DNA of 35,825 nucleotides from Candidatus Blautia stercoripullorum. GTDB taxonomy: Bacteria; Bacillota; Clostridia; Lachnospirales; Lachnospiraceae. Below the pieces are notes generated by a model. It was not told the origin of the DNA. It searched no databases and saw only the letters and a list, made by a program, of their open reading frames with translations. The position numbers and the translations under genes were made by a program. Below, one piece after another: positions 22,738-29,343 of the stretch; position 1 is the first letter of the stretch, and each line of letters opens with the position of its first letter. The DNA is taken from the NCBI GenBank assembly GCA_019120545.1, contig DWUX01000228.1, positions 1-35,825 of the forward strand. Reading direction: 5' to 3'.

Positions 22738-22890
22738 GGGAACTGCTTCATCATTTACATAAAAAACAGAAGGGGACTGCTTTATGCGAATTTGTCGAGC
22801 ACGCTCTGAGACTACAGGCTCAGAGCAGCGCAGACTGAGCAAGAAAGCAGTCCCCTTCTGTTTCTATAGAAAAGCCCTTAGGCAGTTCCC
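22738..22890. repeat. Nested palindromic element, copy 1
   Basis: The 313-base gap here is filled by a nested structure. The outer arms are GGGAACTGC (22738-22746) and GCAGTTCCC (22882-22890). The inner arms are a perfect 20-bp inverted repeat (22764-22783 with 22844-22863). They enclose a core (22787-22842) starting CGAATTTGT, with the perfect hairpin GCTCTGAG-ACTACAGG-CTCAGAGC (22803-22826). The end is T-rich, so it may also terminate the upstream transcript. The core matches copy 2 at 27991-28046. No transposase is nearby. Confidence 0.8.
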
Positions 22891-23009
22891 GTCCCCTTTT
22901 TGACTAAGTCTTTTTTGGTTTCACAGAAAAATCACATTCTAATCTAATTTTTATCACATTTTTCCCATAAAATAAAACAGTTAAAAAAGCTGAATAAGGA
23001 GGGAGTACT

Positions 23010-24014
23010 TTGATTGAAGTAAGGAATCTCGTAAAAAAGTACGGGGATCATGTGGCAGTGGACCATCTGAACTTTACAGTGGAAAAAGGAAAGATTTACG
23101 GCTTTCTGGGACCAAATGGCGCAGGAAAATCCACTACTATGAATATGATCACCGGCTACATTGCATCAACGGAAGGGGATATTCTCATTGACGGGCATAA
23201 TATCCTGGAGGAACCGGAAGAAGCAAAGAAGAAAATCGGCTATCTTCCGGAAATACCGCCTTTATACCAGGATATGACGGCGAAAGAGTATCTGGAATTC
23301 GCGGCAGAACTGAAAGGTATCCCAAAGGATAAAAGGGAAGGAAACATCAATGGAGTTATGTCAACTACAAAAATCCAGAATGTACAGAACCGTCTGATAA
23401 AAAATCTTTCAAAAGGTTATAAACAAAGAGTGGGACTTGCTCAGGCGCTGCTGGGATATCCGGAGATCATCATTCTGGATGAGCCTACTGTGGGACTGGA
23501 TCCAAAGCAGATCATAGAGATCAGGGATCTGATCAAAAGCCTTGGAAAAAATCATACGGTTATCCTCAGTTCTCATATTCTGTCAGAGGTAAGCGCAGTC
23601 TGCGATTATGTTCTGATCATTGATAAGGGAAGGCTTGTGGCCAGCGATTCTCCGGAAAACCTCAGCCGTGTGATGTCCGGAGCCAATTCTCTGGAACTTA
23701 CTGTCAAAGGGGAGGAAGAGGAGATCCGGAAAGCTTTGGATCTGGTGGATAATATTGAAGATCTGATCTACCATAATTCCATTGTTCCCGGTGCCTGTGA
23801 TTTTACAGTAAAAATATCAGGGGATGTGGATATGAGAGAAAATATATTTTTTGCTCTTGCGGAAGCCAAATGCCCGATCCTGAAAATGCAGTCTTCTAAC
23901 ATGTCTCTGGAAGAGGTGTTCCTCAAGCTGACAGATGAGAAGAATGAAAAAAAGTATATGTCTGAAGAAGACCTGTTTGAAAGCGAACAAGAAGAAGAGG
24001 AGGGAGAAAAGTAA
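23010..24014 (+). CDS. ABC transporter ATP-binding protein (GldA type)
   Basis: A 334-residue ATPase of the ABC-2 class. It has Walker A GPNGAGKST, signature LSKGYKQRVGLAQ, Walker B IIILDEPTVGLDP and the switch histidine SSHIL. An accessory C-terminal region (about 220-310) and a very acidic tail (SEEDLFESEQEEEEGEK) follow. TTG is the start, six bases after AAGGAGG. It powers the permease encoded three bases downstream. The substrate is unknown. Confidence 0.9.
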   Translation: MIEVRNLVKKYGDHVAVDHLNFTVEKGKIYGFLGPNGAGKSTTMNMITGYIASTEGDILIDGHNILEEPEEAKKKIGYLPEIPPLYQDMTAKEYLEFAAELKGIPKDKREGNINGVMSTTKIQNVQNRLIKNLSKGYKQRVGLAQALLGYPEIIILDEPTVGLDPKQIIEIRDLIKSLGKNHTVILSSHILSEVSAVCDYVLIIDKGRLVASDSPENLSRVMSGANSLELTVKGEEEEIRKALDLVDNIEDLIYHNSIVPGACDFTVKISGDVDMRENIFFALAEAKCPILKMQSSNMSLEEVFLKLTDEKNEKKYMSEEDLFESEQEEEEGEK

Positions 24015-24016
24015 TT

Positions 24017-24880
24017 ATGCTGGCAGTATATAAAAAAGAGCTGAGAAGTTACCTTACTTCTATGATCGGATATGTTTTTATCGCATTTATCCTGCTGATC
24101 CTGGGAATTTATTTCACTGCTTATAATCTTCAGTATGCCAGTCCTGATTTTGGCTATACATTGAATGCGGTGACCTTTCTGTTCCTCATTATCACTCCTG
24201 TCCTGACTATGAGGATTCTTTCTGAAGAAAAGAAAAATAAAACAGATCAGCTTTTACTTACGGCGCCTGTGCCGGTATGGAAGATCGTGATGGGAAAATA
24301 CCTGAGTATGATCACCATTTACCTGATACCGGTAGTGATCGCAGGGTTTTATCCTTTAATCCTGGGAAAATATGGAACCGTATCTTACGCCACCACCTAT
24401 ACGGCAGTCTTTGGATTTTTCCTTTTAGGCTGTGCACAGATCGCGGTGGGCCTTTTTTTGTCTTCTGTTACAGAAAGCCAGATCATTGCGGCGGTGATCA
24501 CCTTCGGCGTATTATTCTGCAGTTATGTGATGGATGGAATATCAAGTTTCTTTTCCAGCACTTCCGCAGCATCTTTTATTGCCTTTCTGGTTATTTCCTT
24601 TATCATTGCGCTTGTAGTGTATCAGATGACAAAAGATATGATCCTTTCTTTTGTTTTAGGGATTGTTTTGATCGCAGTAAATGTAGTCCTTTATATCGTC
24701 AGGTCTTCTTTGTACGAAGGACTGATCCAGAAACTCCTGGATCTTCTGGCTATTGCCAACCAGTATGACAGCTTTGTAGGAGGGATTCTGGATGTTTCGG
24801 GAATTATTTATATGCTGTCTGTTATCTGCATTTTTGTATTTCTTACAATTCAGTGCATACAAAAACGGCGTTGGAGCTGA
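24017..24880 (+). CDS. ABC-2 permease (GldF-like)
   Basis: A 287-residue integral membrane protein with about six transmembrane segments, beginning with the typical N-terminus MLAVYKKELRSYLTSMIGYVFIA. The cytoplasmic loop MRILSEEKKNKTDQLLLTAPV, which contacts the ATPase, is characteristic of GldF/NosY-like permeases. It pairs with the ATPase upstream and the GldG-like gene downstream. Confidence 0.88.
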   Translation: MLAVYKKELRSYLTSMIGYVFIAFILLILGIYFTAYNLQYASPDFGYTLNAVTFLFLIITPVLTMRILSEEKKNKTDQLLLTAPVPVWKIVMGKYLSMITIYLIPVVIAGFYPLILGKYGTVSYATTYTAVFGFFLLGCAQIAVGLFLSSVTESQIIAAVITFGVLFCSYVMDGISSFFSSTSAASFIAFLVISFIIALVVYQMTKDMILSFVLGIVLIAVNVVLYIVRSSLYEGLIQKLLDLLAIANQYDSFVGGILDVSGIIYMLSVICIFVFLTIQCIQKRRWS

Positions 24881-24916
24881 CCGGCGGGTATGGGAGATTA
24901 GAAAGGAGATGCAGAT

Positions 24917-26443
24917 ATGAAAAATTCAAAAGGGAAATTCAGCATAAAGAAATTAAGTCCCAAGAAAAGAATTAATATTAAGAATATTATTAATAATATA
25001 AAAGAAAAAAGAACCCAGAACAAAAAAATACTCCGGCATGGTTCATACAGTATCGGGATTACGGCGGTTGTGGTCGCCATTGTGGTAGTCTTAAATCTGG
25101 TAGTACAGGAACTGCCTTCCAATATCCGGGAAATCGATCTGAGCAGTGAAAAATTGTACACTATTGGGGATCAGACAAAGGATGTTCTTGACAATCTGGA
25201 TAAAGATGTAGAATTATATCTGATCGCTCAGGAAGGGACAGAAAACAGTGATATCCAAAGACTGCTGGAAAGGTACGAAGACCGCAGTTCCCATATTAAG
25301 GTAGAGCAGAAAGATCCTGCAGTTTATCCTACCTTTACTCAGCAGTATACTTCAGATTCAGTAAATAACAACAGTGTGATCGTAGTATGCGGCGATAAGA
25401 GCAGAGTGGTAAATTACAGCGATATGTATGAAACCAGCATCAATTATCAGACCTACACTCAGGAAACTACGGCTTTCGATGGAGAAGGACAGATTACCAG
25501 CGCCATTAATTATGTAATCTCGGAAGATATGCCGATTTTGTACACTTTGGAAGGCCATGATGAAGTATCTATGGGTACCGCAATGACGGAAACTATCCAG
25601 AAGGCAAACATAGAAATCCAGTCCTTAAATCTTCTGACTCAGGAATCTGTGCCGGATGACGCTGCCTGCCTTCTTATCTTTTCCCCTTCAAAAGATCTTT
25701 CAGAGGATGAAGCAAATAAGGTGATCGATTATCTGGAAAAAGGAGGAAAAGCTCTTATCCTTTCCGATTATACAGAAGAAGATATGCCTAATTTCCAGTC
25801 TGTTCTGGAAAATTACGGGGTTCAGACAGTAGATGGCATTGTGATGGAGGGGGATACAAATCATTATATTTCCCAGAATCCATATTATCTCCTTCCTAAT
25901 ATAGAGAGCGGAGATGTTACTTCTGGTTTGTCTTCAGGCAGCAGGTATGTGCTCATGGCTCTGGCTCAGGGAATTCAGAAAATGGACAATATCAGAGATT
26001 CTCTGAACATTGAAAGTATCCTTACAACATCAGACAGCGCATATTCCAAGACAGATTTGGAAAATATGCAGACTATGGAAAAGGAAAGCGGAGATATTGA
26101 CGGACCTTTTGATCTGGGAGTTTCTATCACAGAAGATCTGGGAGGCGATACAGAGACCAAGATCGTATATTTTGCTACCAGTACAATATTTGACGATACC
26201 ATTGACAGCTATGTATCAGGTGCAAATTATGAACTGCTGTTTTCTGCTTTATCATGGCTGTGCCAGACAGATGAAGACAGTAATACCAGCGCCATTTCTA
26301 TTCCAAGTAAAAGCCTGGATACCTCAAGCCTTACGATTTCAGCTGCTGATGTAAGTTTCTGGAGCATATTTGTAACTGCGGTTATTCCGGTCTGCATCTT
26401 ACTGGCAGGATTCGGAATCTGGATGAAGAGGAGAAAACAGTAA
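24917..26443 (+). CDS. GldG-like ABC accessory protein
   Basis: A 508-residue membrane-anchored protein. A basic N-terminus (about 1-38) is followed by one transmembrane segment (about 43-64), a large extracytoplasmic domain with the family feature of an auxiliary ABC domain (EIDLSSEKLYTIGDQTKDVLDNLDKDVELYLIAQ), and a C-terminal anchor (about 478-500, ending KRRKQ). In Bacteroidetes, GldG works with GldA/GldF; in Firmicutes its role is unknown. The next gene starts one base after it stops. Confidence 0.85.
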   Translation: MKNSKGKFSIKKLSPKKRINIKNIINNIKEKRTQNKKILRHGSYSIGITAVVVAIVVVLNLVVQELPSNIREIDLSSEKLYTIGDQTKDVLDNLDKDVELYLIAQEGTENSDIQRLLERYEDRSSHIKVEQKDPAVYPTFTQQYTSDSVNNNSVIVVCGDKSRVVNYSDMYETSINYQTYTQETTAFDGEGQITSAINYVISEDMPILYTLEGHDEVSMGTAMTETIQKANIEIQSLNLLTQESVPDDAACLLIFSPSKDLSEDEANKVIDYLEKGGKALILSDYTEEDMPNFQSVLENYGVQTVDGIVMEGDTNHYISQNPYYLLPNIESGDVTSGLSSGSRYVLMALAQGIQKMDNIRDSLNIESILTTSDSAYSKTDLENMQTMEKESGDIDGPFDLGVSITEDLGGDTETKIVYFATSTIFDDTIDSYVSGANYELLFSALSWLCQTDEDSNTSAISIPSKSLDTSSLTISAADVSFWSIFVTAVIPVCILLAGFGIWMKRRKQ

Positions 26444-26444
26444 T

Positions 26445-27911
26445 ATGAAGAAAAATAAGAAAGGTCTGATCACAGCGGTGATCCTGCTGATCCTCCTGCT
26501 TATTGTATATATTGTGATCAGAAATCTCCACCTGGACGAAGAGGAGGAAGAAGACAGCACAGAAACCGTCTATGAGATTGATGCGGCGGATATCAGTAAA
26601 CTGCAGATAGTCTCAGGGGACAAAACCTTTGATTTTACCCATGCAGATGATACCTGGACCTATGATGAAGACAGTAAGTTTCCTTTAAATGAATCTGCGG
26701 TTTTAGATAAGGTTTCTTCCGTAACTTCAGTTACTTCTTCCAGAACCATCGAAGATCCGGAAAATCTGGAAGATTATGGACTGGAAGATCCAGAGGTCAG
26801 CATTACAGTGACAGATACAGATGGAGAGACAGCCAGCCTGGAACTGGGGGCGACAAATGATACCGTATCTGCCTGCTATATGATGCTGAATGGAGACGAC
26901 AGCAAGGTTTATCTGGTGGATTCCAGTTTAAAAACAAATATGGAGTTTGACTTAAGCGATATTGCAGAAAAAGAAGAGATACCAAGCATTACAGGAACTT
27001 CCATAACCAGCGTTTCGATTGAAAGCGGAAGCGGAACAGCCAGACTGTATCAAGACAGCAGTTCAGAGACAGGATGGACTTTCGCAGATACTGATGGAAG
27101 CAGTGTTCCGGCAGACAGTTCTCAGGCGTCTACTTATACAAGCAATTTTTCAGCTCTTACCTGGACTGATTATGTGACCTATGACTTAAATACTTTAGGT
27201 GATTATGGTCTGGATCATCCTACTGTGATTACAGTGGATTATCAGGTAGAAGAAAAGGCAGACGATGAAGACTCTCAGAACACAGCAGATGAAGGTACGG
27301 CGGAAGATAGCGAAGAAGACACAGTAACAGTAGATAAACAAATGATCCTCCTTCTTGGAAAGCAGACAGATGACGGAACTTATTACTACGGGAAACTCCA
27401 GGACGATTCTTGTATATATACAATCGCCGCATCCTCGGTAGAAGGAATTTTAGATGTTCAGAAAAATAATTTCCTCAGTACAAAAGTTGCGGATTATTCC
27501 TTTGCGGATTTGGATAAGGTAACCTTTACAAGAAATGGGGAAACCTATGTAGCTTCAAAGGAAACTGTAGAAGTAGAGAGCGATGATGAAGATGAAGACA
27601 CCAAAGAAGAAACCAGGTATATGATAAATGATAAAGAAATTGAAACAACGGATTTCAATAGGTTCTATAATCTGATCACAGCTATGACCTGGCAGAGTCA
27701 GAATGAAAATGCTCAGCCTTCAGGCGAGGCAGACATTTCCATCAACTTCTATAAGAATGGAGGAACAAATGTGACTGTAGATTATTATTCCTATGATACA
27801 AACTTCTATTTAGTTATTGATTCTAAAGGAAATCATATGTTAGTTAACAAAATGGATGTGAGGGAATTCTTAGAAGCATTTGATTCCGCTATGGAAGAAT
27901 TAAATTCATGA
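26445..27911 (+). CDS. DUF4340 domain protein
   Basis: A 488-residue protein with an N-terminal signal anchor (KKNKKGLITAVILLILLLIVYIVI) and an acidic extracytoplasmic part. It holds repeated units of the form ISKLQIVSGDKTFDFTHADDTWTYD, typical of DUF4340, and an Asp/Glu-rich insert (about 265-290). It routinely follows gldG-like genes. It has very high Ser/Thr/Asp content and no cysteine pair. A parS site begins at the base after the stop codon. Confidence 0.85.
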   Translation: MKKNKKGLITAVILLILLLIVYIVIRNLHLDEEEEEDSTETVYEIDAADISKLQIVSGDKTFDFTHADDTWTYDEDSKFPLNESAVLDKVSSVTSVTSSRTIEDPENLEDYGLEDPEVSITVTDTDGETASLELGATNDTVSACYMMLNGDDSKVYLVDSSLKTNMEFDLSDIAEKEEIPSITGTSITSVSIESGSGTARLYQDSSSETGWTFADTDGSSVPADSSQASTYTSNFSALTWTDYVTYDLNTLGDYGLDHPTVITVDYQVEEKADDEDSQNTADEGTAEDSEEDTVTVDKQMILLLGKQTDDGTYYYGKLQDDSCIYTIAASSVEGILDVQKNNFLSTKVADYSFADLDKVTFTRNGETYVASKETVEVESDDEDEDTKEETRYMINDKEIETTDFNRFYNLITAMTWQSQNENAQPSGEADISINFYKNGGTNVTVDYYSYDTNFYLVIDSKGNHMLVNKMDVREFLEAFDSAMEELNS

Positions 27912-27927
27912 TGTTTCACGTGAAACA
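27912..27927. other. parS site 1
   Basis: TGTTTCACGTGAAACA is a perfect 16-bp palindrome that fits the Firmicutes parS consensus TGTTNCACGTGAAACA bound by ParB. It directly abuts the stop codon of the DUF4340 gene. Confidence 0.93.
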
Positions 27928-27947
27928 TTGATAGACAGAATAAAAAG

Positions 27948-28091
27948 AAGGCACTGTCATATTAATTCAGAAATACTTATATATTTTATACGAATTTGTA
28001 GAGTGCAGCTTTGAAACCATAGGCTTAAAGCAGTACAGATTAACAATAAAATATATAAATATTTTCGATTTTATTAATATGACAGCGCCTT
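27948..28091. repeat. Nested palindromic element, copy 2
   Basis: Outer arms of 19 bp (27948-27966 with 28073-28091, one mismatch) and inner arms of 19 bp (27971-27989 with 28046-28064, one mismatch) enclose a core from CGAATTTGT (27991) to CAA (28046). The core hairpin is GCTTTGA (28008-28014) with TTAAAGC (28025-28031). T-rich tails lie outside both arms, so it can end both convergent transcripts. Both stem mismatches would be G-U pairs in minus-strand RNA. Confidence 0.8.
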
Positions 28092-28095
28092 ATTT

Positions 28096-29049
28096 TTATA
28101 AGTATATATTCATTAGATCAAGAAAAGCATCGGGAGCTTCCATATGAGGAAGATGTTTGGTCCTTTCTATTGTACATGTCTCGATTGAAGGATTTATATC
28201 AGTATAAGCAGTTTGAATCCGTTGCATTTCAGGCTCTTCTTTACCGGAAATAAGTATGATGCTTTGATTGATTTCTCTTAATCCGTGGTTAATACTGTTG
28301 TTTGTATAACAGCCAATTATACTTGATAATAAAAATTTTGAACTGCTGAATCCCTTATGAGCAGCTTCGTGATATGTATCGATCATTTCAGCAGTTACGT
28401 CAAAAGGATTATAGAGATATTTCTCTGTGAAAAGCAACTGTATATTGCTTTGGCAAGTAATCATATTGTACACTAAGGTTCCAAAAACCGGGAGTTCCAA
28501 TAAAACCTTATACAGTTTACTTCTCTTTCCGGGAATTTTATTTAATACAGAAAGCTCCGGGGGATTTACCAGGAACAATTTTTTAAAGAGAGAAGATTCA
28601 TTATAGCATGCCAAAACCGTAAAAGATCCGGAATAACCGCTGGCAATCACATCTGTCTTTTCTTTGATCACATTCTTGATAAAATCAGAGATCAACTGTA
28701 CATATAGATAGTTGGTATAGGTGATTCTGGGCTTTTCAGAACGGCCGCAGCCGAGAAGATCAATAGCATATACAGTATGAGACTGAGATAATTTATCAAT
28801 CACTTCTTTCCATTCGTAAGCAGAACTGTATACTGTTAAATCGTGAATCAGCAGGATTGGAGAACCGCTTCCTGTTTTCTTATAGTATATTTTCCCAAAT
28901 CTCCAGTTATAATAATTATTTGCAGAAGATTTCAATAGGTTCTTTAGTGTTGCAGAGGCAAAAATCAAGCGATTAATAAAATATATGATTCCTGTGGCAA
29001 AAGAGATTAATATGCCAAGAGTAATGATTTTATTTCTGCCTTTTTTCAT
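28096..29049 (-). CDS. Membrane-anchored alpha/beta hydrolase
   Basis: A 317-residue protein with one N-terminal transmembrane anchor (about 9-31) and an alpha/beta hydrolase fold. The oxyanion region is ILLIHDLT, the nucleophile elbow is SGYSGS (Ser catalytic), and the terminal His is in TKHLPHMEAPDAF. The usual Asp after strand 7 is not evident: the site reads ISGKEEPEM, so a glutamate may serve. It is AT-rich, the only gene on the right arm read against replication, and flanked by parS sites. The substrate is unknown. Confidence 0.82.
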   Translation of the reverse strand: MKKGRNKIITLGILISFATGIIYFINRLIFASATLKNLLKSSANNYYNWRFGKIYYKKTGSGSPILLIHDLTVYSSAYEWKEVIDKLSQSHTVYAIDLLGCGRSEKPRITYTNYLYVQLISDFIKNVIKEKTDVIASGYSGSFTVLACYNESSLFKKLFLVNPPELSVLNKIPGKRSKLYKVLLELPVFGTLVYNMITCQSNIQLLFTEKYLYNPFDVTAEMIDTYHEAAHKGFSSSKFLLSSIIGCYTNNSINHGLREINQSIILISGKEEPEMQRIQTAYTDINPSIETCTIERTKHLPHMEAPDAFLDLMNIYL

Positions 29050-29139: not shown

Positions 29140-29225
29140 AATAATGGTTTTCTTCTATTATAAATCATGGGGGTGAAATATACAAGAAAAAATAAAAGGA
29201 CGTTCCTGGAAGGAAAATCTTATAA

Positions 29226-29241
29226 TGTTTCACGTGAAACA
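29226..29241. other. parS site 2
   Basis: A second perfect TGTTTCACGTGAAACA, upstream of parA and 75 bases before site 3. Confidence 0.93.
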
Positions 29242-29300
29242 TTACAAGATGAACAAGAAAAATATGAAATGTTTTTAAAAATTCATAAAAACATAAAAAA

Positions 29301-29316
29301 TGTTTCACGTGAAACA
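29301..29316. other. parS site 3, next to the parA promoter
   Basis: A third perfect TGTTTCACGTGAAACA. It ends 30 bases before the extended -10 of the candidate parA promoter, so bound ParB would lie close to polymerase. Confidence 0.93.
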
Positions 29317-29343
29317 CTTTCTGTAGAAATACAAATAGAAAGG

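Follow-up and report, generated by a model that had tools for sequence, protein, structure and literature searches.

Two palindromic intergenic elements, at positions 22738–22890 and 27948–28091 of a contig of Candidatus Blautia stercoripullorum (DWUX01000228.1, assembly GCA_019120545.1), raise the question of whether they belong to a wider family and what kind of element such a family would be. The window, as we call the whole stretch of DNA analyzed, comprises positions 1 to 35,825 of this contig. An earlier note, written from the letters of the window alone, had read the two elements as the product of selection on a folded RNA or on a cruciform recognized by a protein. We report here that both are members of a multicopy repeat family with a covarying core and interchangeable stems, and that this family is mobile, a feature beyond that first account. 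On balance, the window elements probably represent a non-autonomous mobile foldback element that is addressed through its folded tip and lives at terminator positions.

Structure of the Two Window Elements

The element is built of three nested parts, namely outer arms, inner arms, and a core of about 56 nt. It spans 100–160 nt overall and has long inverted arms, matching in these respects miniature inverted-repeat transposable elements (MITEs), which are short and non-coding with terminal inverted repeats. The parts found in the window are listed below with the basis of each assignment in parentheses; the covariance models R1 and R2 are described in the next section.

22738–22890, + strand: copy 1, whole nested hairpin (sequence, fold, orthologous copies in other genomes)
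22738–22748, + strand: copy 1, left outermost arm, partner of 22880–22890 (fold)
22880–22890, + strand: copy 1, right outermost arm (fold)
22764–22783, + strand: copy 1, left inner arm, 20 bp, perfect complement of 22844–22863 (inverted repeat I13)
22844–22863, + strand: copy 1, right inner arm (inverted repeat I13)
22787–22842, + strand: copy 1, conserved asymmetric core, 56 nt (sequence, core pattern, alignment; R2 match at 22779–22847)
22803–22810 / 22819–22826, + strand: copy 1, apical hairpin within the core, loop at 22811–22818
27948–28091, + strand: copy 2, whole nested hairpin, decayed (sequence, fold, comparison with genome G006)
27940–27966, + strand: copy 2, left outer arm, 93% complementary to 28073–28099 (inverted repeat I2)
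28073–28099, + strand: copy 2, right outer arm (inverted repeat I2)
27961–27989, + strand: copy 2, left inner arm, 83% complementary to 28046–28074 (inverted repeat I3)
28046–28074, + strand: copy 2, right inner arm (inverted repeat I3)
27991–28046, + strand: copy 2, core, 56 nt (sequence, core pattern; R1 match at 27967–28069)
28008–28015 / 28024–28031, + strand: copy 2, apical hairpin within the core, mismatched (A·C) next to the loop, which spans 28016–28023

The earlier note had placed both elements correctly, and their folds exceed all 200 dinucleotide shuffles on either strand (z-scores for copies 1 and 2 of -8.38 and -9.69 on the + strand and of -8.35 and -11.08 on the - strand). The 56-nt cores are alike, as it had claimed, the loops of their apical hairpins (ACTACAGG and ACCATAGG, respectively) are nearly constant, and the arms differ in sequence between the copies, yet keep their pairing in both. 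The two changes described in the core hairpin, from C-G to U-A and from G-C to G-U, are present as well; one further pair had been overlooked, the one that closes the loop, which is G-C in copy 1 (22810/22819) and is mismatched, as A·C, in copy 2 (28015/28024).

Compared with its ortholog in genome G006, the core of copy 2 is 80.0% identical and the flanks are 86.9% identical, the changes in the core falling at positions nearly invariant across the family. Judged by its sequence, copy 2 is a decayed family member. Because of this decay, a comparison limited to copies 1 and 2 is weak evidence of selection, and the strong evidence comes from alignments of the family.

Size and Distribution of the Family

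A search with a core pattern gave three places in the window's own genome and 44 loci in genome contigs. Seven of the 44 were judged to be chance matches (L010, L014, L025, L033, L040, L043, and L047), and L012 is truncated. The remaining loci are on contigs with Blautia names, apart from those titled uncultured Firmicutes (A106_L4) and one of Candidatus Merdivicinus. In the region of the element, the latter (DVOW01000058.1, locus L036) shares about 99% identity with a Candidatus Blautia contig (L030), and it may be misbinned.

We built two covariance models, R1, of 104 nt, from 37 copies (a 38th, L017, was excluded for its poorly paired arms), and R2, restricted to the core. Modeling of this kind had been proposed as a check on the two window copies, and further copies with preserved core and paired arms were indeed found in Lachnospiraceae genomes. 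R1 matches 14 of the 20 genomes of the genus, one of them weakly, and 6 of 397 genomes of the family, three of these six belonging to two other genera; among 392 genomes drawn from the order, R2 matches 4, which all belong to the same genus. The identification of this genus as Blautia is based on the named contigs. In the window's own, fragmented genome, R1 detects 13 core-bearing copies along with a few that are shortened, many of these copies lying at contig ends (C213, C80, C100, C98, C143, C188, C197, C159, and C130 each have an element or a shortened copy there). The repeat therefore seems to break the assembly, so that the copy number of this genome is a lower bound. Two better-assembled relatives contain at least 39 (G013) and at least 19 (G004) distinct places, counted by hand among R1 matches; the raw R1 counts per genome, up to 81, include antisense echoes. 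No match to two exact patterns of the element was obtained in viral contigs, and none was obtained for window copy 1 against plasmids or for the L006 copy against phages.

Several counts given below refer to a set of 152 copies, which are the distinct sequences from the R1 hits and the first alignment. They are not independent insertions, and they include two core-less copies (L064 and L065) and one weak hit (L082).

Covariation in the Core and Turnover of the Stems

The core of about 56 nt has an asymmetric fold, a hairpin with two internal loops, and its covariation, first suspected from two copies, holds in the family. On the 37 copies of R1 (104 nt), RNAalifold yielded 36 consensus pairs, 21 of which show double-sided compensatory changes. 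In an alignment of the core alone (44 copies drawn from named contigs and seven genomes, after exclusion of three mis-anchored rows out of 47), 98.8% of the cells are paired, and 67 are double-sided against a shuffle mean of 14.9, a number that none of 500 shuffles reached. Sliding the partner by one to three columns lowers the paired fraction to 11–43%. One helix of three pairs occurs as GTC/GAC, GCC/GGC, and GTT/AAC, and the second and seventh bases of the loop ACYAYAGG change together where it becomes ATTACAAG.

The stems are interchangeable: their sequences can be wholly unrelated between copies and still pair. At the locus of copy 1, the inner arms of genomes G000, G006, G010, and G007 differ in sequence yet pair. 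In G120 and G411, five of six copies combine this core with 25–28-bp stems that are perfect or nearly so and that differ from the Blautia stems; the sixth (L102) pairs over a shorter length. The outer arms of many copies are of the type GGRRCTGYYGCATTA... and its complement, with ends common across loci.

The core is also conserved in place. We hand-picked 23 orthologous pairs, leaving out other orthologous sets, and dropped one for low flank identity; over the remaining 22, mean identity is 94.5% in the core, 91.6% in the inner arms, and 88.0% in the partly coding flanks. Core identity is higher than flank identity in 20 of the 22, window copy 2 being one of the two exceptions.

The Folded Strand

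Such covariation, conserved internal loops, and cores conserved in place resemble those of structured RNA, and one may thus consider that the family is a structured RNA element dispersed by chance (a regulator in 3' untranslated regions or an RNA-protein site), whose core acts in transcripts. The balance of noncanonical pairs is partly in its favor. Core G·U pairs exceed A·C pairs, as expected if the top strand folds, by 49 to 19 (141 of the 152 copies; the alignment kept 144 copies and lost window copy 2, which is not among the 141), and by 34 to 16 when each genome group and pair type is counted once (p = 0.015). The stems have no such excess (300 G·U and 346 A·C, in 127 of the 152 copies). 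Orientation relative to the neighboring genes also argues against this explanation: between tandem genes, 24 cores are in sense and 24 in antisense, and this lack of preference speaks against a role at the transcript level and fits, without proof, recognition of a folded DNA strand. The element had not been recognized as a named family in the earlier note, and no Rfam 15 family reaches its gathering score in the window. Relaxing the E-value to 5 for three loci and part of the window gave nothing credible, the sub-cutoff matches including U7 snRNA over the core (17.7–20.5 bits for a cutoff of 34) and a piece of SSRC8_2 (15.6 bits for a cutoff of 72). We consider a role confined to RNA unlikely. 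Of the two forms of selection first proposed, the RNA form is weakened; what stands is that the top strand of the core, folded as either DNA or RNA, could be read by a factor.

Insertion and Shortened Derivatives

The family is mobile, as one clean insertion documents, and it also comprises shortened, core-less derivatives. In genome G017, locus L019 differs from its empty counterpart in G002 (L125) by 107 inserted bp and a duplicated 6-bp TAACAG, the flanks being 91–92% identical on both sides; the site is also empty in the window genome and in G006, on diverged sequence. At the copy-1 locus of G019 and G016, a second element is nested inside the first, and G017 seems to keep a remnant. Unfilled sites that resemble internal deletions were found in G006 and G017 at the L243 locus, in G000 at L288, and in G002 at L276. 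Short core-less hairpins of the family type occur in 6 of 20 genomes, all of them family carriers, at one to five places each; the exact pattern used to find them overlooks variants, the G006 hairpin at the L243 locus among them. Loci L267 and L251 have a common outer hairpin and different insides. In the window's own genome, L068, L064, and L065 are shortened copies in which the inner arms are present and the core is truncated or replaced. The idea that the outer arms are a pre-existing palindrome targeted by the core was rejected as the general case, because core-less hairpins are found only in family carriers and several look like remnants.

An ordinary MITE of a DDE-type insertion sequence, with stems as long terminal inverted repeats and a core as passive filler, would also account for an insertion with a 6-bp target duplication, for outer arms that share their ends across loci, and for internal-deletion derivatives. 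The ends of such an element should, however, be its conserved part, whereas here the inside is conserved and covaries and the inner arms can differ completely. Nor was any longer element with Blautia-type inner arms present in the 1.1 Mb (partly redundant) of collected loci, a scan of these loci and not of whole genomes. Away from a core, such arms belong to decayed or shortened copies, apart from one that a contig end interrupts and one match that is unrelated. A DDE-type origin of this kind is therefore doubtful in our view.

Position between Convergent Genes

Gene context could be classified for 117 of the 152 copies (18 others lie far from genes and 17 have no gene on both sides): 61 lie between convergent, 48 between tandem, and 8 between divergent genes. 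The family resides downstream of genes, chiefly in convergent intervals. On a circular chromosome, convergent and divergent gene pairs are equally frequent by necessity, so that 61 against 8 is a strong skew, orthologous copies being counted separately. Several orthologous sites that lack the element carry another hairpin instead. Given this location and these replacement hairpins, the elements may act as two-way terminators.

The same two observations could mean that the family consists of two-way intrinsic terminators with little or no mobility, the arms of which are kept complementary by template switching (quasi-palindrome correction) and not by selection. Changes in the arms of 20 orthologous pairs are in part as this process would leave them, with 12 double-sided Watson-Crick changes, six of transversion type. 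One-sided changes are nevertheless commoner, with 16 G·U and 50 mismatch cells, 23 of the latter stemming from two pairs shifted by an indel. Template switching is described as also causing spacer inversion (PMC8604942), of which we saw none in the 22 orthologous pairs, the orientation of the core relative to the flanks agreeing in all 22. As the clean insertion also argues against the form without mobility, we hold this explanation to be improbable.

Search for a Mobilizing Gene

The Y1 transposase domain (PF01797) has a match in 10 of 23 genomes searched, including the copy-rich G002, G004, and G007, and also in G003 and G011, where R1 found no copy. It has none in the copy-rich G013, G017, G019, G010, and G334 (completeness 99, 100, 91, 89, and 87%, respectively). 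Y1 elements are not known to make a target duplication. Mobilization as REP/REPIN repeats by a Y1 (RAYT/IS200-type) transposase, suggested by palindromic, extragenic sequences in dozens of copies with a top-strand fold bias in the core and by the Y1 matches above, was rejected as hardly tenable given the lack of PF01797 in those five genomes (G013 and G017 above all), the target duplication at the clean insertion, and a nested hairpin of 100–160 nt instead of the 20–40-bp palindromes described for REPs (PMC3733652). The genes between two close copies in L197 and L191 (4 proteins) and those beside copies in L173–L176 (9 proteins) are ordinary. No bias in replication polarity was seen in G004 (8 against 11 among the 19 places listed, assuming an origin near the contig end).

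A Proposed Foldback Element Addressed by Its Tip

These data bring us back to the non-autonomous foldback element, which could work as follows. The folded tip would be the address of the element: a trans-acting protein would read the folded top strand of the core and mobilize the element, its substrate being single-stranded DNA or an extruded hairpin or, less likely, RNA. For the stems, double-strandedness would suffice; the element could then also function as a two-way intrinsic terminator, or take the place of one, and so be tolerated in convergent intervals. Some copies would become plain hairpins through internal deletions of the palindrome. More tentatively, the family may represent a class of elements addressed by a hairpin tip, in which a protein recognizes only the folded asymmetric core as a single strand and the sequence of the paired stem is freely replaceable. 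Such a class would be the inverse of attC sites and REPs and would involve a type of recombinase not yet linked to palindromic repeats. The attC sites of integrons are recombination substrates recognized as a folded single strand with a variable stem sequence; they conserve their outer boxes and vary inside, and the conserved parts of REPINs lie at the foot of the hairpin, not at its tip. The Blautia element has a variable stem in common with attC but, unlike it, conserves the tip and varies the stem; an integrase was looked for only among the scanned neighbor genes.

Several points weigh against the foldback reading. No autonomous relative or mobilizing gene was found. L019/L125 is the sole clean insertion, with no second clean case among the pairs examined; its 107-bp unit lacks the outer arms that many copies carry, and the other filled/unfilled pairs resemble deletion derivatives or sites that were replaced. 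Core and inner arms do not differ significantly in identity (p = 0.18), and the conservation of the core may be inflated, since the pairs were hand-picked, both copies had to be detectable, and three pairs share window copy 1; gene conversion between paralogs could imitate it. The counts of covariation and location treat related copies separately and thus include shared ancestry. The G·U bias is modest and could stem from strand-biased mutation. The terminator role is a reading: a terminator scan gave no hit at either window element, being restricted to loops of 3–8 nt and blind to such hairpins, and the enrichment of A/T tracts next to the outer arms is no more than modest (scorable in 46 of the 152 copies).

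Comparison with Known Repeats

By analogy, the closest kinds would be the structured mobile repeats of Firmicutes (SPRITE, RUP, BOX, and EFAR/Efa-1), from which the family is set apart by a conserved, covarying, asymmetric tip on freely replaced stems. EFAR is a miniature insertion sequence whose targets are unrelated stem-loops, portions of the target stems being retained at the ends of the inserted copy. Efa-1 of Enterococcus faecalis, likewise intergenic and structured, is of similar size (we take its listed values, 163 and 65 (18), as length and number) but, as far as the descriptions can be compared, it is a pair of adjacent stem-loops, whereas the Blautia element is one nested hairpin with a conserved covarying tip (PMC2267715). 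SPRITE, RUP, and BOX of Streptococcus pneumoniae are small structured repeats that are also enriched between convergent genes and insert into each other; inverted ends and target duplications are features of RUP and BOX, and SPRITE looks like an over-long terminator. Their hosts differ, and the account of them with which we compared ours, by description, mentions no conserved asymmetric tip on freely replaced stems (PMC3049150). REPINs, which are REP doublets, are also non-autonomous palindromic mobile DNA, with a predicted hairpin in single-stranded DNA or mRNA, but have a link to RAYT transposases (PMC3116915), which went undetected in several of our copy-rich genomes. Our searches of an open-access library found no description of the present family.

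If our interpretation is right, the family would be an abundant mobile repeat of common gut bacteria, with up to dozens of copies per Blautia genome, that is located where terminator-like hairpins stand in relatives and that falls at breaks of a short-contig assembly. It would also offer a natural experiment on how long palindromes keep their arms complementary during sequence turnover, and its conserved tip would be a bait for finding the factor that reads folded DNA or RNA.

Other Observations

In G120, which belongs to a different genus, the element at L176 (3994–4099) lies between rsmG (gidB) and the gene of an ABC-transporter ATPase and has stems wholly unlike those of window copy 1. Its gene neighborhood is close to that of copy 1, where a glutamate-synthase-like gene lies between; this likeness may reflect either shared ancestry or a repeated target. 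In G334, inverted pairs of elements about 100–700 nt apart were observed at L179, L180, L181, L182, L183, L185, and L186; some of them flank minisatellites, the units of which resemble pieces of the core. Finally, the window contains three near-identical ATGTTTCACGTGAAACAT palindromes (27908–27929, 29222–29243, and 29297–29318) beside parA/parB genes. We take these palindromes to be parS-like sites, and the window is therefore probably near the origin.

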